Shown here one piece after another: positions 9,883 to 58,417 of a stretch of 64,000 bases of DNA. Source of the stretch: Taiwanofungus camphoratus. Its lineage: Eukaryota > Basidiomycota > Agaricomycetes > Polyporales > Taiwanofungaceae. Both the position numbers and the translations under genes were made by a program. A model generated the notes under the pieces. The model had not been told where the DNA came from and ran no database searches. It was given only the letters and a program-made list of their open reading frames with translations. The DNA is taken from NCBI GenBank assembly GCA_003999685.1, contig CP021223.1, positions 2,728,001 to 2,792,000 of the forward strand, given 5' to 3'. Position 1 is the stretch's first letter, and each line of letters begins with the position of its first letter.

Positions 9883-11386
9883 TCAAGCCACTGCAGCAAT
9901 ACGCTGAGGAACAACTTGCGTCGGTGATGGAACTTTTCCCACGGCATCCATCACATTGTCTGTGTGCAGACCAACTTGTACCTTGTGCGCGCGGCACTCC
10001 GCCAAGAAATCGGCGAACATCTATGTCAACCAAAATTTCACATCAACATTTGAGATATCAAGGATGTTGAAGTGAGACGTACCTCAATAGTATCAAGCGG
10101 ACCACCTGCACTCTCAGGGTGGAACTGAACACCCCAAACCCTCTTGCCTGATTGGGGGGACGACTTGATGCCCTCGACGGACGAGTCATTACAGTTAATG
10201 AAGAAGGGTTCCCATCCTGCTGGAAACGGATCCTGCAGCTTCAATGCATACTGATGATTCTGGCTACAGAGAACAGAGTATCGTCAGCTCTCCATCGAGC
10301 CAAGAACAAATATGAAGGAAGACACACCTAGTCACGTAGACACGGCCGGCTTTGATGGAGCCCGAGGATGCAAGGGCAAGCACCGGCTGATTATGCCCGC
10401 GGTTCCCGAATGTCATACGGTATGCATCCAAGCCTGCTGCCATCCCGATGATTTGATGGCCCATGCAAATGCCAAATACTGGTCTGTCCCACTCCCTCAG
10501 AGTCCGACGTAAGGTCAACGCCGCAGGCATGCAGTGATTCGGATCACCGGGGCCATTGCTCAAAAACAAACCGTCGAATCGATCCCGAATCGCGTTAAAG
10601 TCGTAATTCCATGGCAAGACGGTCACAGCAGCCCCGCGACGCACAAGCGAGCGGAGGATGTTCGCCTTAGCGCCGAAGTCTAACACTGCAATCTTGACAT
10701 CGCCAGTGGGATTCAACTCGTATGGTGTCTTCGTTGATACCTGATCGACGAGGTTCTCTTTAGTCGGGTCCCAATATTCCTTTGCTTTAGGAGGGGGAAG
10801 AGAGGCGTCGGGCCCTACAGCAAGCCGACCTAGCGTCGTGCCCTGGTCACGCAAAAGGCAGGTTATAGCACGCGTGTCGACACCAGTGATGCCAGGAACA
10901 CCATTGCGCTGGCACCATGATGCGAGTGACTCGACAGCGGTGTAGTGCGAGAAACGCTCCGCCACGTCTGCAACAACGACTGCAGTGCATTGTATACGCG
11001 ATGATTCAAGGACAACACCGACATCACGAGCATCGGTGGGCGCTTGGTTAGTAGGCACGCCGTAGTTCCCAATGAGGGGTGTAGTAAAGACGAGGATTTG
11101 ACCACGGTAGGATGGATCTGTCATCGATTCGGTGTCTTAAGGGCGAGAAGTCAGCTGCCAACGTATACAGCGATGATGGATTTCCTAACGTACAGGATGT
11201 AATTGATGTAGAAAACACGGTCTCTCCGTAGATACTATGAGGAGCACCAAACGATCGGCCAGCAAACGACTGGCCTGTTTTCAGGTGTAGAACGGCTGGT
11301 GGCGAAGACCCGACAGGAATGTGTTTCGCATGTGTAGCCAAACCTCGGTACAGACGCGGAGTACGAGATAGATTTCGAGCAATCAT
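9883..11386 (-). CDS. CPA1: Carbamoyl-phosphate synthase, arginine-specific small (glutaminase) chain
   Basis: Exons 11386-11194, 11135-10328, 10263-10083 and 10020-9883 give 1,320 nt, 439 residues, the usual length for the family. The N terminus MIARNLSRTPRLYRGLATHA is a typical mitochondrial presequence. The CPSase small-chain N domain follows (YTESMTDPSYRGQILVFT, then GITGVDTRAI). The class I glutamine amidotransferase domain has FGICMGHQ with the nucleophile at Cys288, and the His/Glu pair in QFHPESAGGP. The enzyme releases ammonia from glutamine for the large chain (CPA2, not in this window) in arginine synthesis. The ATG lies only 10 nt after the stop of a spliced upstream ORF (11397-11529), and a TGACTCA site lies upstream, so both translational and general amino-acid control are likely. 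It converges with the gene ending at 9624. Confidence 0.95.
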
Positions 11387-11396
11387 GTTGTGATTT

Positions 11397-11529
11397 TTAA
11401 TGAGCGAGAAGAGAGAAAACGAGATCGCTGAGGTAACTGTTGAAGGAAATATTCTCAGTACGTACACAGGAGATCTTTTTCTACTATGCCATTGACTTAC
11501 TCGTCGCGAGTGTTCTGCGTGAAAATCAT
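11397..11529 (-). CDS. Upstream ORF: arginine-attenuator-peptide-like leader peptide, interrupted by an intron
   Basis: An ATG at 11529 opens 29 nt of reading frame (11529-11501) that ends exactly at a GTAAGT donor. The intron 11437-11500 ends in CAACAG. The second exon, 11436-11397, continues the frame to TAA at 11399-11397. The spliced peptide is 22 residues long and contains FT followed by RDDYLSDL. Ascomycete arginine attenuator peptides are 24-25 residues with FTSQDYLSDHLW (Neurospora arg-2) or QDYISDHIW (yeast CPA1). The shared D-Y-(L/I)-S-D core includes the Asp known to be needed for ribosome stalling in response to arginine. The stop is 10 nt before the CPA1 ATG, as expected for a regulatory uORF. 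The same intron removes in-frame stops, so only spliced mRNA encodes the peptide. What I see is the splice signals and the core; stalling activity is inferred. Confidence 0.8.
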
Positions 11530-11604
11530 GTACGAGCGAAGGCGCTCAGAGGATGATGTTCTTGCGAGAGATGTCGTATAAGTAGGAGCACGGTGTGTCG
11601 ACGG

Positions 11605-31572: not shown

Positions 31573-34622
<3,050 letters not shown>

Positions 34623-35084
34623 GGCGGGGCTGAATGGGGGCTGAGTGGGAGGGACACGGGCGAGAACACCGAGCTGGGCGTACCTGCTGTCGTGGTGGTG
34701 GTTGATGTAGACGGGCTGGGTGGTGGCGGTGGAGATGAGCTGGGGGGCAGAGTGGGTTCTCGTGAGCTGGGCACGCGGTCGGTGATGACGTTTATATATC
34801 TGGGCGAATTCTATAGCGGCAGGGTCCGGATATGGCGCAGAGGACGATACGGCTGAAGTGGTCGACGACTCTTCGCTGATGGGCTCGCAGATGGATCTGC
34901 GCTTGAGCACGGACGGGCGAGTGACCGTCGAATCCGGGGAGCCTGCGGGGGTGAGGACGGGACCACCAGCCAAGGACAGGCGGGCGATGGCGAGCGATAG
35001 CGGCGACGCGGCCGAGTGCGGCGCAGACCTCACTCGCGTTCGCGCCTTCTGCTCAACCTGGTGGCACGACAAACGTGCGTGCAT
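34623..35084 (-). other. Open, in-frame 5' extension of UGP copy A
   Basis: From ATG 35084 the frame runs 154 codons without a stop straight into the UGP ATG at 34622. The sequence is Ser/Pro/Arg-rich (SAPHSAASPLSLAIARLSLA, EPISEESSTTSAVSSS, AQLTRTHSAPQLIS). Copy B has no counterpart and UGPs do not usually carry it. It could encode an alternative longer isoform or be untranslated leader in GC-rich sequence. Confidence 0.35.
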
Positions 35085-38000
35085 TCACCGCGGACAGGCC
35101 AGCGACAACTCTCTGCGATGTTCATCCTGTCGCCCGCAGCCACCGGGCCTTTTGTAGTCGCACTCTCCCGTAGCAGATGGCTGCCCCTCGAGTATATCGG
35201 TCCTCCGCCAAGCCAGTCTGCTTCTGGGCTCCCGATCTCCGATCTCCTGATGGCTCGCCGCCCTTATGGGTCCCTTTCCCAGATAGGCCACCTTGTTTAA
35301 ACTCCGAATTGTCAGCTTCAAGTCCAGAAAACAATTGTACTGATGCGGAGCTTCAATGATATCGGGTTCTAACTTCCCCTACTAAGAGTAAGGAGGAGCC
35401 TGAAATGTTCGTAACAGACATCGTTTCAGAGATGGAACATGAAAGGTATTGACCCAGTGATGGCTGCTTCCACTAAATACCACCTGTGCAATTCCTGCGG
35501 GTCCGACATCTTTCAGCCTGCCTCGACATCCTGGACTAGACAACGTCCTGCTTTTACTCGCAGACAATACGGTTTCCGGGACCTTTCTCCGACGCCTGTG
35601 GCAGGCAGTTCTGCGGGTCTGATACTCAGATACTGAGCAGGTTCCTCTCGCCGTCAGCTTCCGCTCCACTCGCCGTCCCGCGTTTCTCACATCTCGCCCG
35701 GCAGCCCTCTGAGAGCTTACTTCCGTCCGGATTTTTGAGATACTCCATGATACTACTCGAAAACGTGCACTGTGATAGCCGACCACGAGGCCGCCCGAAC
35801 GGCGCCTCCACAAACCAGAGAACTAGAAAGAGTTAGGGACTGGTGACTAGAAATTGGCCTGTTCTGATTCTCGTATCATGTTCGCTAGCTGGGTGATCCT
35901 TCCGGTAGGCTGCCTAGCCCCCTCAGACCTTGAGACATCCTCTCCCGCCGAACAGGAAGGTCATCCGTTCCTGGACGAACCGCCCATGCAAACTCGAACT
36001 CCCGGCTGCGAAGTTGATTGGGCGGGAATGAGGAGGGGGCAGAGCGGCCGGACGTTGTGGAAGTCGTTTGAATGGGACGTGCATGTAGCCTTCTCGGGGT
36101 TTATCTTCTGGAGCAGGTACCCATCTTATCACCTGTGTGTGCTGACGGTGCCTCTTGCTCTTCAGGGCATCTGATTTCAAGGGGGGCCGTGACACGAACA
36201 TGCAACGCAGATGACTCACAAATTCTCGTCCGCACCGTGAGCGCCCATCTTGCTCAGCGATCCTGCGAGGAGGCGCCCGCGGGCCCGCAACGCATCATAT
36301 ATCTGTGTCATACATTGGCGCCGGCACGCCACACGATCATTCTGTGTGCTCTTGTAAATCTTTCGTGGTGCCTGCCAGGGAGTACATCCCTCTCGGCCCC
36401 GCGTGCGCACACGAACATCTGGCCAGGGGTGCATAGCTCCCGAGCCCTAAGCCCTACAAGTCTGCAGAAATGCATGCAACGTTACAGGTCTTGGCGATGC
36501 GATACGTTGGAGAGGAGGGATCAGCGTACGTGTCCGCTCCTCTCTCGCCTGCACGAGAACAAGTGATATAGACGTAAAAGTGCACCGACGAAGCCCGGTA
36601 TAGTATATCTCATCTGTTTAGCATCGTGAAGATGCTACGCGCCTCGAGGTGAGCATCGTGGGGTACCTTGATTCTGTGCGGGGCACCCTGGAGCACGCTC
36701 TCAGGACCGGCTCGCGCCGGGGGGGGAGACAGACAGGGCAGCATCATTCCAGCACGATGTATCGACTTCGGAACGCGAAGAACTTCGTACACACGCATGC
36801 AGACAGGATAGCAGTGGAGATGCGATGCGCACGACACTTACGAAACTGGCGATCGCCTCGCAGCACACAGCGCTCGGAGAGAAGTCGAGCGTCAGTAGGT
36901 ATCAGTTTACCAGTTCGCCCCAGCCGGGCCCGCCTCGACACGAACACAACGCCTTCCTTTGGGAGACATTGACAGTGGATCAGTCCGTCACTGGAGCTCG
37001 ACCAGGCACAGCGTCAGTATTGAATGTATCCGAGACTTACCTCCGCATCCTAGAAACTGCTCACGCTGTCATATCGCGGCATCGTTCGACCCATGTTAAG
37101 AGTGCGGAACTGTTGTGTACCGGTCTGAAGAATCCCAAAGTGTCAGCTGAAACCGGCTGTCTGAGCGGCATGCACACGTTATCTAGAATAACGAGCTCGA
37201 GACGCCCCAAGACCTTCAGTTTTCCCTCTGTCTTACCGCCGTGTTCAAAATGAAACATTGCCTCTGCACAGTCGTCGTTAAACTAGAGTCTGCTTTTGCA
37301 TCAACGCCCGCCTTTCGCCGCGCATGGCATGTAGTAAGTACATTTGTCACGCTCGGATGGCTGCCACTTAACTGGCAACTTGATTCGACATCGTTCGGGC
37401 GAAAAAAGTATATTTCACGAGATGAGACCCGCGGATTGTTTGATGGTAGCATTATGCATTGTATGACATACTTAGACGTATACCTGGTGTCGGCATCTGT
37501 TGAGTCCAAAGGTTAGAGACTTGGTCGTTTCCTCCATCGAATTTTCCTATATCAAACACTGCCCAAGATTAGTTCGCTATTGGTTCTCTCTGAAATGGGT
37601 GATGCCTAGACAATCATCGATAATATGTGAACGTATTGCTAGTGGTAAGTAATATGCAGCATATAGCACTTATTGACAGTTACTTGAAAGCGTATTTTCG
37701 GAAAATTGAAAAGTTTGACATGTCAATTATGGCCGCTGGCCCTCCCTGTTCCGCAAGTTGGATCCCTTGCGGTCGATAGAGGGAAATTTGCGGGGATCAC
37801 GATAACTTGAACTTATGCGTACCTGTACGATTTCTAGTACGAACCCATGCTCACTACCAGCGCTGTTTCTGTCCATTGTTACATGTGCCTGAGTATCTTC
37901 CGTATGTTTGTCTTTGTTCACATTGGAATCCAGGTACAACTGGCACTCGACATCGACTTGCAATTGACGCATACATGGGCACTCAGGTGCCACTTTAGAT

Positions 38001-38259
38001 GAAGGAGTTTCGTCCGCCTTTTGTCCGACTCGACAGGCGTTCGAAGTTGAAACAAACGTTTGCTCCTTGGAAAAAGTAACCGTGCCTTTAACAAACAAAC
38101 GACAAGCAAAGACCGCCAGAGTTCTCGACCGCGTCGGTAGATATAAGACCGCGCGCCTACTTCCATCTCATTTGTCGATCTCGCAAGTAGCTCGCTGCGA
38201 ACGTTCTTGCTTTCCTCCTGCAAATAGTCCTCCAAACACCCGCGGAACGCCCTCTCTTC
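35085..38259. other. Intergenic region between the two UGP genes
   Basis: About 3.2 kb between the head-to-head UGP genes. Only short scattered open frames are present, on both strands. I could not join any of them into a gene, and I see no tRNA, repeat or mobile-element remnant. Both UGP promoters must lie here. Confidence 0.5.
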
Positions 38260-40511
<2,252 letters not shown>

Positions 40512-50019: not shown

Positions 50020-50337
50020 TGCTGTGGAGTTGGTTGAGAAATACCAACGAGACTCAAAAGTACGAAACCTTGCACAGTGAAAGCGCACGAGCGCGTGTGG
50101 GTTACGTAATCACACGCGTCCGGACGCGACGGGCGCGAGTCGAAAGCCAACTTGAAACGACATAAGCGACCGACATACTAAATACGTGCTTGGCCTCCGA
50201 TTTTTCGGTCGAGCGACTGCTCAACTGGCGTTGACTATGCTCTCCTATTACTTGTTATCCAAACTTGAAGCTTGATTTTTGCGTCATAACCGTTTCAAAT
50301 CATTGCACTTCACCTCTAATAAAGTTGCAGTTCGAAG
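50020..50337. promoter_or_regulatory. Bidirectional CCT6-APC1 promoter
   Basis: 318 bp between divergent ATGs. It holds a palindromic TTACGTAA (50102-50109, bZIP-type) and an ACGCGT MluI box (50114-50119) five bases later. Confidence 0.5.
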
Positions 50338-53300
50338 ATGACTCTGACGCAGCCAATTTCGGTCCGTCATAACTCACGTGTAATATCTTCTGCACGACGC
50401 TATCTCTCTGAAACTTCATCCACGAACCATGTTTCGGAAAATCAAGAATCAGACCTGCTCAGGTCTATCCGTGCCACTCTCCAAGGATCTCGAGGCAATG
50501 CTGATTCTTCGATCCATTCAATTGTATATGCACCAGGTGAAGATGCAGTGGGAGAAGAGGAATTGTGCTGGGATAACTACACTGTCATCCTTTCCTCGGG
50601 CGGGATCATGCGAAAGAAGTGGAGCTTCAAGGAGGAAGGTCAACCCATCCAGTGGGCATGTATCGGCTGGTTTGATCAACCGAGTGCAACGACCTCAGCG
50701 TCCTCGTTACGCCCAGCACACTATACGTATGACTATCATGATCAGTCGACACCTGTCGTGGAGCCGTCGAAGCGTCCCACCTTCGGGCCTTTCACTCGTG
50801 CTCAACAGGAACAGAAACGTGAGCCAGAGCCGGGAATACGAATCAGGGCTCTCTTTGTCTTTCTTCGTAGCATCGGTAAAGTGTATGTCATGAATGGCAC
50901 TGAATACACCTTCCACTTGCCTTTCATTGTACGCAAAGCATGGCCATTGACTCCTCATGGAGTCATGATCCAACGCACGCTGGATGCTGCAGAGATCGAG
51001 GAAGCAAAGACCTCCAATGATCCCCCGTTGCCTACGATCTTTACCTTCACTAGTGCGTTAGCGGAACCAGCTGCTGTTGGTCTTGCGGAGAAGCTCGTAG
51101 GCGGATATCATCAAATCCCTGCAACGCTTAAAGTCGAAGATCCGAAGAAGCTTACGAACTCAGTTCCTGCTGAGGAACATGTCGTGTGGGTTTCCCAGCG
51201 CGGGCCTGATTTGTCGGATGATGTTGTAGTCACTGTTAATCCGAATGAGCGGCGGCTCTCGATCTGGAGGTATGCGTTCATCAGACCCAAAGATGTCCCT
51301 TACCCGCAGAATCATAATCGTCCACGCACAATGGCGAGCAAACGGGCGTCCCTGTCTGGAACGCCTGTCCCTCGGCGGCATCCCACTGCTACCATGGGAG
51401 TTGCGGACCACCCCCCTCGCATAATTCCCCATCCTGCACAAATACCAGATCTACCAACGCTTGGTGGTCTACCCGGAATGCCACCATCCCTCGCCACGAC
51501 GGCGACTATGGCCAATTTGGTAGGCACTGCGCCATCAGGGCCGCAGTGGCCTAGCCTTGGAAGAGGCCGACAAAGTTCCATGAGCAGGCACGAGCTAAGC
51601 ATTACCATGGACAAAATGGTGCTTGGTGCTTACATGAATGCGGGTTCCCCCCTTGATCCCGTGGATGATGACAAGATGAAGCCAACTTACTGGGTAGAAA
51701 GGTTGTGGAGCGAGGACATTTCACAGGCAGAGTAAGTTTCACTTGCTAAAATGTGATTGAGGAGTCTCTGATGTCGATTGTAGTGTAGCTGTCGTACGAG
51801 ACATATCTACAGGTCTGTTCGATCAGAGGTGGGACGGTAAAGAGCGCCGTTCTTTGATAGGTGTATGCCTGCCGGCCACAGAGTCGCTGCTTATATTTCG
51901 TCTCGCTATGCAGGAGGACAACACTATGACCGCTACGTTACAAACTCGCCTTTCGGCCATGTCTGTCACTTCCATTCGCGCGACTCGCTCTACTGTCCGC
52001 GATTTGCTGATAGTGAAACCCACGGGATCGCTGTCTGTTCTCACTCACGGTCTGTTCGAGTTACCTCTGCAGATTGCGCGTGCTGGTACAGACGACGTCA
52101 TTGTCATGGACATCGAGGGGCGATCATCCACGACGCAGACACTGTCAACAGGTACAGCCTTCAATATTACCGCTGTGCAAGACGCAGTCGAGTCATCGGT
52201 TACTGTGACATTTTCTGACGGCGCTAGAGTCCGCACTACAATTGATCTTATACCCCGCGACATGTTGACAGGCCAATGTCTTCTGATGCTGGCAATGACA
52301 CTTCCTGCGCAACCGTATTTCGCTCTTCACAGCCAATTTTTGTGGAAGTGGTCACTGCAGGATTTGGCGATTTCAGATGATATCGAGTTCGCCTCATTCG
52401 CATGGGCATTGTACAAAGTCATCGAAATTGAGCAGCAATCTGACAGCGTATCACAGATGAGTGTAAATGATCCATGGTGCACCCTATCATGTACACCTTC
52501 CGCTTCTCGCTTTCATGAAGATTCTGTACTCAAAAAGCTCAGGCTACCGCCATCTTCTGTGATTTCACCCGGCACCCCAAAGCCTGCTGGCCACCCCCAT
52601 GCTCTGCTTGTCCCCGTTCTTTACGCGTTGCATCATGTAGCGGAAGATCTGCGACTTACGGTCTGCCGATATCATGCACTTCTCAGACTTGTACCGGTTA
52701 TTTGCAGGATTGCTATCGTTGTCCGTCCTGAATGGGCTGACTACTGGAAGCGCTTATGTCCCGACGCAATGGAAGAGTGGCCGTCGTCAGCACTTGCAGG
52801 TAAGTTGCCACGCAACCTCTCCTTATTTAGGCCTGAAAGACCTTCATCCAGTCGCTGACCATGTAGACGACCGTCTTCCTGTATGGCCACCGGATATGTC
52901 TGCCATCCTCTACGGTCGCATTAATAATCCCGACTGGAACGCCCCTTGGGTAGAGAGTTACATGAGTGCCCTTCAGTTCAAACTCAGTGCATCGTTCGCC
53001 TACGGCATCACAGAGCCTCTTGTAAACCTCAGACAACTGACAGCTATATACATGTGCCTGGCGGACAATAAGGTCGCGGAGAGCCGGAAGCGTGCCGAAA
53101 ATGCTCTTCATCTGCTGATCAAGACACAGATGCGGCCTGATGCTATGCGGTATCTACCAGTTGGCATTGCTGCACCGATCAGAGAGGCAGCACGGACTTG
53201 TCAACTATCTCCAGGCGGTGATTGGCCCACGTCTGCTTATCAATTCATTGGGCGAAATGACCTGGCAGAGGGCTTGAGCCCAACTTCTAACTTAATCAAT

Positions 53301-56300
53301 AGTCATGGGTATCGATCAGTGAAAAATTACATTGTGAGTGCGGTAGCGTCTGCCTTACCGTTAGCCCTTAATCCTGATCACCCCCTTTAGCTTCCGCCAG
53401 TCCCGCGCAAGACCATGCACCAGCAAATCAACGAAGTGTGTAAGATGATTGTCGGTGAAATGAGTCCTGTGTCCGGTGTCGAGCTTGATTTAGAAGACTT
53501 CACACAAATACGATTCGGGCAAGATAGACGGTTGGAAGAGGTTGCACGTATGCTTTGTTCATCTTGCATTCCTACAATCAAGGCAATAGAACGGCCCGAA
53601 TTAAGGTATGAATGCGACATCTATTTCATCATGTTGCCGTCCGGTCTGATGGCATGTGTGTCAAGTGAACATGATCAAGCCAAAGAGCATCAGCATCAGG
53701 TCGTTCGACTAGCGGAGAGGACTCTAGCCCTACCCTTAGGAAGGGCTTTGTTTACGTTCGGCTCTGTCCCAACGGTGACTCGCGAAGCATATGCAATACC
53801 CAAAATCGAGTTCACTGTCCGACTTCAACCTCATAATGTGATCATGGCACCTGAGGCCGGCAAAATTCCATACGAGTGCACCAGCTGGGGGGAGTTCCAC
53901 AACGGTGTTGCCGCTGGATTGAGGATTTCCTCTCAATCCAATGCTGTGGACAGCACTTGGATCAAGTTCAATAGACCTTCAGAATTGACTCCAGAGCATG
54001 CTGGTTTTTTGTTTGCCCTTGGATTGACTGGCCACCTAAGAGAGATGTTGACATGGCACACGTTTGGCTATCTCACCCCGAAGCATGATATGACTTCAAT
54101 CGGTGTCCTCCTCGGGCTTTCCGCTGCAAATGCTGGCAGTAGCAATCGCCACGTTACCAAACTTTTGGCTGTGCATACGCCTGCCTTGCTTCCAACACCT
54201 AATGTCGATCTTAATGTCCCGCTAATTACTCAAACCGCTGGACTGATGGGCATTGGATTGTTATATATGGGAACCAAGAACAGGCGTATGGCAGATGTAT
54301 GTCTCAATCAAATCAGTCGCAAGGACCTCTACCAGCCAGACCTTAGTAACGAATATCGTGAAGCGTATACCTTCGCTGCAGCCCTGGCCTGCGGCATGGT
54401 GATGCTTGGTAAAGGGTCTGCCATCCCGGCTGATTTGGCGATTGTCTCTCGCCTACGTGTCCTTGTGCATGGTGAAGGACATGCGGTTCTGAACGGCAAA
54501 CACTCACGTCCTTCCTTTGATATAAACCTAACTTCCCCTGCCGCAACCATTACCTTGGGTCTGATGTATCTAAGGACCGAACGGCAGGATATTGCCGATG
54601 TTCTCACCATTCCAGACACTATTCTTGCACTTAACAGCATTCAGCCAAGTTTCCTACTTCTACGCACCTTGGCTCGAGCCCTCATCATGTGGGACAAGAT
54701 TACTCCCAGCAAGGAGTGGCTTTCTCAGCAAATTCCCAGGGCCATTGCCCTGGCAATGGGAGCGCGATTTCAAGGAAAACTCGTAGACGATGCTTTTGAG
54801 TTGGCTTATTACAATATTCTAGCAGGCTGTTGCTTTGCGGTAGCTCTCAAATATGCTGGTACAGCGAGAGAAGAGGCATACCTGCTGATTATCCACTACT
54901 ACGACATGTTCAGCCAACTTGCATATACGAATAGTAAGTTTTCTTCCATTGGATCGTTTTTCATACTTTCTATCAATTAACATGATGACAGGCCCTGTAT
55001 TCGACCATAGAATAAAACGAGCTGCCATCCGCGACGGTCTTAACCTCATATCCATTTCCCTCAATATGGTTATGGCTGGTACAGGCGAGATAAATTGCCT
55101 GCGCAGACTGCGATATGCCTACGGGATGTACAATCAACCTATCAGGTATGGTACTCACATGGCAACACACATGTCTCTCGGTCTACTATTTCTTGGAGGA
55201 GGACGCTTCACCTTGGGCACTTCCGATGCAGCAATTGCTTGCATGATAACTGCGTTCCTTCCTCGCTATCCTCATGTCTCCTCGGATAATAAAAGTTATC
55301 TCCAAGCTCTGCGCTATCTATGGGTATTGGCGGTGGAACCAAGATGTCTCATAGCACGAGACGTTGACACCAAGGAAGTCGTCTATCTGCCTGTCAAAAT
55401 CAAGGTAAAGGAAGGCAAGGAGGTCGGAACCACTCAGCTAATTTCGCCAACTCTCATTCCTGACCTCGACAAACTTCTCTCAATCCGAGTTGATACCCCT
55501 CGGTATTGGCCATTCTACCTGGACGTTGCAAATTACCCCCGACACAAAGAATCCCTCCTTCGCAGTCAGACGCTGTTTGTGAAGCGCCGAACAGCTTTTT
55601 TGAGCTACATGGAAGATCCTAAAGGTAGCCGTAGCCTGTTTGTTCGGTCCGGCTCTTCCACAAGTGATGCCGCCACTTTGGATTTCCCTCAACTTACGGA
55701 GACGAAGGTTCATCCAGCAAGCGACCTCCATCAGTTCATCTCGTCATTCTCGAATGATGTACTGTTTCTCTCATTTGCAGATCGTTTCTGCCGAGATGAT
55801 GGTGAGACGCCTGAGGAGAAGCTCTTCCATGCGTACTGTCACGCGAGCTTGCTAGACGCCATTCTCCAAGACAAATCCCAGACCATACAATCACACATCA
55901 CCCTATATCGATTCCGCACTATGTCCCCTCAGTCGCGGTACTTCAATCTGAGGTCGCAAGACCTTCGCTTCGCTACCGATTTCTACAACAAAATATATGA
56001 CCGTAGGTTCAGCGGTAGGTCAGAGAACAACCCTCGTCCTTCATTGATCCGCGAAAATACCCTGTCCGGTGCGATCCACGCGCTAGATCGCAAGCTGGAC
56101 GACATCCGCTCAAGTGAGGTATTTCAGAAGCTTTTGGCATGCTATGTCCGTGGTGAAGTGATACCGGCATTCCCCATCCACTCTCCGCAATGGAAGGCGT
56201 CTCGAGACTTGTCATGGTATTTGCAGCGCAACAGTGTGCCGGTGTCTACGTTACTCGTCGTCTTGAGAAAATTAGCTCGTCAGGCCCACGAGAACTGCTT

Positions 56301-56804: not shown

Positions 56805-58417
56805 TCACGCGAGTCTCGCCTTCTTCCTCGCCCCGCTCCCAACACCGCCCGCGCCTCCACTTAGACTTGCAAAGCTTGCTACGCTGCCTGGTTTTCCCGA
56901 CTGCGGGTGTGAGTGTGAGTGCGATAGCTGTTGCGAGAGGTGGGCTTGAGCCTGAGCTTGGACTTGCGCGATCTGCGCCTGCGCTTGCGAGTTGGCTGTA
57001 GGCAGAGGCACCATGGAGGGTGCATCATCGTGCGTAATGCGGCGGTGTGGTGGGATCTGATGGGAGGGCAGAGATTGGAAAGCGCTGGGGAGATGCAATT
57101 AGGTACAGCTGAAACAGATCAAGATGACGGCACTTACTTTTGTGTGGGCTTGGGATCTTCTTGGAACCACCTGTGCTGCAGTGCTTCTTTTGCAGTGAGG
57201 CGGTTGTCGGGATCATATGCGAAGAGTTGACGGAGAAGCTCGTAGCCTTCTTTAGATCGGATGCGGGATTGGCACCACTCAGCTAGACGATTCGAATAGC
57301 TGGTAGGCGGATGTACGCGTGAACGTTGTGCGTGAGTCAAATATGGAGATGTGACACTCACACGTCGAGACGCTTCATGTTCAAATATTCGGGCAGGTCT
57401 TTCACACCAGGCCAATCACGCTCTGTGGGCACAAATGGTGAATCGGATATGAACACCGCCATCGATGAAGTGCTACCTTCTGGGGTACCTAGAACCTCAA
57501 AGATCTTGAGCAATTGGTCCTTCTGGAATGGCACATTCTTCTTAGAATCTAATTTGGCTTCCTCGCCTTTGAATATAGGCCTAAGGCTCGCCAGTTCTGC
57601 CATGACACATCCTACGGCCCAAACGTCAACTGCTTTATTGTAGTGTTTCGCGCCCAGTAAGAGCTCCGGTGCGCGGTACCAAATAGTCACGACAACCTTG
57701 TCACCAGCAAAGAGAGGCTGAAGAGGCTGGTATGTAAGTCGTGCAAGACCAAGATCACCGATCTTGACTACCCCCGGGGAGGTGATCAAGATGTTAGCAG
57801 GCTTGAGGTCGCGGTGGATAATGTGCGCTGTGTGAAGGTAGAGCAGGCCATTGAGGAGTTGGTACGTGAGAGATTTGAGGACAGGGAGAGAAATTTGAGA
57901 GCGAAGCGTTTGTGAATGATGGTGAATGACCTGCTAGAGTGTGTAGACACAATATCATTACAACGAAGGTCTAGACAAAACAGGTGTCTCATACCAGAAA
58001 GTCATGCTCGGCATATTCGAATACCATGTATATTGATTTGTCCTCAAGAATGACCTCCCTGAGAGCGGTAACGTTCTCGTGAGATATCTCCCGGTTGAGC
58101 TACGATCGTGCATTGAGAGAACCGTTGTGATTCAGGAGAATGAAGACACTGACCGCAATCTCTCTGATGGCGCTTTGGCTGATGCCGGTGTATGTGATGA
58201 CATCCCCATCCTTGTCTGGCTTGAACTTTTTGATAGCGTACAGATTATCTCCGCCTTCCTTGCTTTGCGCCTTGTACACTCTGCCATATGTCCCGGAGGA
58301 GATGAAGCCGAGAATCAGATACCTGTCGGTCACTCGTTTCCGGGCAGCATCACGCTTGGCACGATAGATGCGCATCGGGTCATTGAGAAGGATATTGGAA
58401 GACCATTCGTCAAGCAT
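56805..58417 (-). CDS. SSN3: Cyclin-dependent kinase 8 (Mediator kinase, SSN3/SRB10)
   Basis: Exons 58417-58154, 58099-57995, 57933-57477, 57422-57362, 57299-57138 and 57084-56805 give 1,329 nt, 442 residues. Motifs: [12 protein letters not shown] (glycine loop), YAIKKFKPD (Lys), [11 protein letters not shown] (the C helix, CDK8 type rather than PSTAIRE), [13 protein letters not shown] (catalytic loop), [10 protein letters not shown] (DLG in place of DFG), [11 protein letters not shown] and [30 protein letters not shown] closes the lobe. The Gln/Ala/His/Ser-rich tail ends [10 protein letters not shown]. With cyclin C it phosphorylates transcription factors and the Pol II CTD in the Mediator kinase module. 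The 54-nt stop-free intron 57423-57476 is removed to give GTPEERDWPG. It converges with APC1. Confidence 0.93.

Follow-up and report, generated by a model that had tools for sequence, protein, structure and literature searches.

Introduction

The closest described counterparts of the element reported here are the arginine attenuator peptides (AAPs) encoded by uORFs ahead of arg-2 in Neurospora crassa and CPA1 in Saccharomyces cerevisiae. Work by Spevak in 2010 is said to have found that residues 9–20 of the N. crassa AAP suffice and that Asp-12, Tyr-13 and Trp-19 matter, with Trp-19 reported as essential. Two papers (PMC11550727, PMC10501990) describe AAP biology as leaky scanning at low arginine and, with arginine, stalling of the ribosome at the uORF stop. 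For the yeast peptide, PMC7969011 describes the native uORF start context as inefficient and reports that the D13N exchange abolishes arginine regulation. Translation of a primer printed in the same paper gives T-C-Q-(D13)-Y-I-S for residues 10–16.

AAP control is not confined in print to the ascomycetes just named. For the Cryptococcus CPA1 homologue, PMC7049704 describes an AAP uORF that is heavily occupied by ribosomes above a repressed main ORF, and gives this homologue as 5-fold up in upf1 mutants. The locus described below resembles it as an AAP uORF on a basidiomycete CPA1 homologue; in Cryptococcus the uORF is translated, repressive and linked to nonsense-mediated decay (NMD), on the evidence of that paper. 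A more distant parallel is the uORF of Toxoplasma TgApiAT1, which according to PMC8370653 encodes an AAP-like peptide that responds to arginine and has an essential Asp. It differs in belonging to a transporter gene of an apicomplexan, and the authors of that study regard it as convergent.

Introns within a conserved uORF are known from another family, group 8 of PMC2075485. The passages of literature searched describe no AAP uORF that contains an intron, a result of little weight in that the main AAP survey lay outside the search.

A uORF with a predicted intron upstream of CPA1

The DNA analysed is a 64,000-nt stretch from Taiwanofungus camphoratus, referred to as the window. On its minus strand an AAP-type uORF lies upstream of a CPA1 gene, its two parts (11529–11501 and 11436–11397) being joined by a predicted splice. 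The uORF and the coding exons of CPA1 are arranged as follows.

11501..11529, minus strand: uORF exon 1, ATG...GA, codons 1–9 and two bases of codon 10 (MIFTQNTRD + GA)
11437..11500, minus strand: predicted uORF intron, 64 nt, phase 2, GTAAGT...CTGAG...CAACAG
11397..11436, minus strand: uORF exon 2, T-YLSDLVFSLLAH-TAA, remainder of the AAP core and the stop
11387..11396, minus strand: spacer of 10 nt from the uORF stop to the CPA1 ATG
11194..11386, minus strand: CPA1 coding exon 1, start context CACAAC-ATG-A with A at -3
10328..11135, minus strand: CPA1 coding exon 2, between introns 11193–11136 and 10327–10264
10083..10263, minus strand: CPA1 coding exon 3, followed by intron 10082–10021
9883..10020, minus strand: CPA1 coding exon 4, to the stop codon

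The CPA1 frame starts with the ATG at 11386 and, after removal of three predicted introns, the spliced model of 193 + 808 + 181 + 138 nt encodes 439 amino acids with a single stop. This protein scores 387.5 bits against TIGR01368, above the cut-off of 307.35, and also matches PF00988 and PF00117. It is a carbamoyl-phosphate synthase (CPS) small subunit without fusion to the large subunit, and because it is unfused we take it to be probably the arginine-specific form (CPA1/arg-2 type), which would place the uORF in the leader of an arginine-specific CPS small-subunit gene. Upstream of the CPA1 ATG the same frame stays open for a further 53 codons (to 11545, minus strand) that contain no in-frame ATG, and initiation at a near-cognate codon within 11386–11545 may extend the N-terminus of CPA1.

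A search with the CPA1 protein returned 10 pattern stretches in viral_contigs, none of which was confirmed, and 16 in genome_contigs, where the 5 confirmed ones are carA loci of prokaryotic MAGs with 36–42% identity. Two patterns at the DNA level, written for motifs of eukaryotic CPA1, had 0 and 0 matches in viral_contigs, and no fungal CPA1 relatives were present among the matches in viral_contigs and genome_contigs.

Other genes were seen elsewhere in the window. Two UTP-glucose-1-phosphate uridylyltransferase (UDPGP) genes lie in opposite orientation about 5.7 kb apart within 31835–40257; their matching arms reach 407 nt with 89% complementarity, and the 134 residues that align show 92% identity. 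The pair is an inverted duplication. Anaphase-promoting complex subunit 1 (ANAPC1) is represented by ORF pieces at 50323–54977 on the plus strand, with a weak PC_rep match, and a protein kinase piece (Pfam Pkinase) is found at 57361–57933 on the minus strand.

The uORF itself opens with the ATG at 11529 and closes with the TAA at 11399–11397. Given the predicted splice, its product is the 22-residue peptide MIFTQNTRDDYLSDLVFSLLAH, followed by the stop. The original prediction had proposed a 64-nt intron, a peptide of 22 residues and a stop 10 nt ahead of the CPA1 ATG, all of which the coordinates bear out, the splice being a prediction here too. It had also placed the split in the codon preceding the D-Y-L-S-D core, and this was wrong by one codon: the codon divided by the predicted intron (GA/T) is that for the first core Asp. 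The early stop expected in the unspliced leader after ten codons does occur, as the frame reads MIFTQNTRDE and then ends at codon 11 on a TAA that lies within the donor GTAAGT.

The context of the uORF start is TCGTAC-ATG-A. A T at -3 makes a poor start context by general fungal rules, and by the same rules the uORF ATG would be weak enough to permit leaky scanning.

Comparison with known AAPs

Likeness to the family was judged through two members, the N. crassa and yeast AAPs. In a stop-anchored alignment with these references, 7 of 22 positions are shared with the N. crassa peptide and 7 of 22 with the yeast peptide. For the part equivalent to N. crassa residues 9–20, the minimal domain, the identities to the two sequences number 6 of 12 and 5 of 12, respectively. 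Shuffled residues reached the stop-anchored score against the N. crassa reference in 270 of 200,000 cases, and against the yeast reference in 1 of 200,000. The 22-residue peptide had no match in PDB chains (E up to 10) or in Pfam.

The N. crassa arg-2 AAP, 24 residues long, shares with the peptide described here the gene, the position in the leader, the DYLSD core, the 8 residues from core to stop and a Thr placed three residues ahead of the core Asp. The present peptide, however, has 22 residues, carries Phe at the position equivalent to Trp-19, and is encoded by a sequence that the predicted intron splits; Q11, H17 and R20 are changed as well. The AAP of S. cerevisiae CPA1 (25 residues) likewise agrees in the gene, in a DY[I/L]SD core with the essential D13, to which the split Asp codon corresponds, in the stop-anchored spacing and in a C-terminal His. 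It differs in that Leu here replaces Ile in the core, Phe replaces Trp and Leu replaces the His after the core, and in that the T. camphoratus uORF has a predicted intron and a gap of 10 nt to the main AUG. The inefficient start context of the yeast uORF, as described in PMC7969011, is a further point of likeness.

The departures from these references bear on whether the peptide still senses arginine. It is conceivable that the uORF merely lowers CPA1 translation constitutively and that its AAP likeness is a remnant. The Phe in place of Trp-19 and the low identity outside the core would fit such a loss and, together with the changes at Q11, H17 and R20, they count against a plain arginine-sensing AAP. 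The exchange of one aromatic residue for another is a mild change, however, and we treat Trp-19 as important for the family but not as defining it. Moreover, given the predicted splice, the D-Y-[L/I]-S-D core ends 8 residues ahead of the stop, and an exact D-Y-L-S-D with this exact distance, held across an intron, would be unlikely without selection. We therefore regard a remnant that no longer responds to arginine as quite unlikely.

Chance level of the motif

Chance occurrence was assessed with dinucleotide-preserving shuffles of the 552-nt leader, in which uORFs were admitted either unspliced or with any single intron of 45–100 nt (GTRNG, a CTRA branch-like site, YAG). Of 814,553 shuffled leaders, 2 produced a DY[LIV]SD uORF with its core exactly 8 residues ahead of the stop, a frequency to be read with the fact that the leader was not a random pick but the site where an AAP is expected. 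The looser form D[YF][LIVM][ST]D followed by 5–12 residues appeared in 75 of 814,553. Candidate peptides number 14 in the real leader; the mean for the shuffles is 8.0. Searching both strands of the 64-kb window with the looser pattern gave no match beyond the CPA1 uORF.

If the transcript started below the uORF, or if the intron were unreal, the DYLSD would be a coincidence. The weakness of the acceptor described below, and a splice that is itself a prediction, lend this reading something; the two hits among the shuffles, and the position of the motif in the leader of the only gene expected to carry an AAP, make it highly improbable. The AAP identity put forward in the original prediction is upheld by the CPA1 leader, the core motif, the exact core-to-stop distance and the weak start context of the uORF as against the strong one of CPA1.

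Quality of the predicted splice sites

The donor of the uORF intron, GTAAGT, has the top score, which is equalled by 0.58% of the 7,531 GTs in the window. The acceptor is ordinary to weak, its score being equalled by 27% of AGs. The combined score of donor and acceptor is reached by 149 of 15,357 GT–AG pairs spaced 50–80 nt. A branch-site-like CTGAG within the intron agrees with CTRAY at 4 of 5 positions, and the 64-nt length and GTAAGT donor fit the three CPA1 introns (58, 64 and 62 nt). Introns as short as these also agree with a basidiomycete host.

The acceptor was further scored against 13 comparison introns, all themselves predictions and scored leave-one-out, consisting of the 3 introns of CPA1 and 10 picked by eye. 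The pick was made from 20 ORF-bridging introns, of which 2 were CPA1 introns, one of them with a wrong acceptor; of the remaining 18, 10 were kept and 8 dropped. On the 12-base score the AAP-forming acceptor reaches 2.27, with 3 of the 13 comparison introns as weak or weaker, whereas its 6-base score of 1.77 falls below all 13 (lowest 2.54). This weak 3′ end counts against a plain AAP uORF with an intron.

Candidate tandem 3′ splice sites, CAACAG and CCTCAG, lie 9 nt apart inside the AAP core (11426–11437, minus strand), the second of them as follows.

11426..11428, minus strand: candidate tandem acceptor CCTCAG, intron end at 11428; the bases are the first of the resulting exon and the end of the AG

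The predicted acceptor at 11428 outscores the AAP-forming one on both measures, with 3.18 versus 2.27 over 12 bases and 5.27 versus 1.77 over 6 bases. Its use would yield MIFTQNTRDDDLVFSLLAH, a product without Y-L-S but with frame and stop unchanged. This acceptor may be incidental, since its CAG sits in the Leu-Ser codons of the core (CTC AGC). Another AG, at 11454, would bring the uORF into frame with CPA1; it was rejected, its acceptor GAG scoring lowest of the three.

Splicing as a possible switch

The split codon and the paired acceptors raise the possibility of control at the level of splicing, which the original prediction had proposed. The cell would then set the arginine sensitivity of CPA1 ahead of translation. 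If intron removal or acceptor choice were varied, an arginine-sensitive spliced CPA1 mRNA would exist beside an insensitive one, which would carry either a blunt uORF (MIFTQNTRDE and a stop, with an in-intron MA and a stop) or a core-less peptide. Such a switch is possible, if unlikely. The predicted intron interrupts the codon for the essential Asp, its retention would halt translation at once, and the weak AAP-forming acceptor competes with a higher-scoring tandem acceptor 9 nt downstream. For C. neoformans, PMC3990503 gives alternative forms for 27% of 5′-UTR introns and retention, at a ratio of at least 0.01, for 76% of UTR introns. The donor, however, is the best possible, and the acceptor has its equals or inferiors on the 12-base score among the comparison introns, as noted above. 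The in-frame TAA is automatic in a phase-2 intron beginning with GTAAGT, a donor found in 4 of the 13 comparison introns, so that the in-intron stop needs no special explanation. Also against a switch, the second acceptor is built from codons that the core itself requires, and the leader is devoid of a folding signal. Because the leader folds no better than its shuffles (z 0.07), a riboswitch-like element in it is likewise unsupported; an Rfam search of the window gave no match at gathering score.

Some CPA1 mRNA that lacks the AAP is nevertheless likely by analogy, because low-level retention of UTR introns is common in C. neoformans (PMC3990503). An intron that is removed constitutively would leave a normal AAP.

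A model for CPA1 control and its implications

We hold with good confidence that the locus carries an ordinary AAP uORF in the CPA1 leader, and that the spliceosomal intron interrupting it is an ordinary one, spliced out of most transcripts. In this model, scanning subunits would often bypass the uORF AUG, which is weakly placed, and initiate at the CPA1 AUG, which is well placed with its A at -3, so that at low arginine leaky scanning would feed CPA1. At high arginine, nascent MIFTQNTRDDYLSDLVFSLLAH made from the spliced uORF would stall the ribosome at the uORF stop and block CPA1. As the gap is only 10 nt, a ribosome held with the stop codon in its A site should reach about to or over the CPA1 AUG and occlude it directly. 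Efficient reinitiation across 10 nt is presumably unlikely, and CPA1 output would therefore rest on leaky scanning alone. Termination at the uORF should also mark the mRNA for NMD, because about 200 nt still separate the uORF stop from the next exon junction.

Peptides of this kind are known, and control by an AAP in a basidiomycete, a point that the original prediction had left open, was already in print for Cryptococcus (PMC7049704). The split form is possibly a variant of AAP anatomy. With the intron as predicted, it provides a definite example of a stalling peptide that gains its essential codon only through splicing, and surveys of unspliced leaders miss uORFs of this split kind. If splicing is constitutive, the locus would add one more AAP, probably to those of Basidiomycota, and a marker with which to date introns in AAP uORFs; if splicing varies, two layers of control would be joined on one biosynthetic gene.
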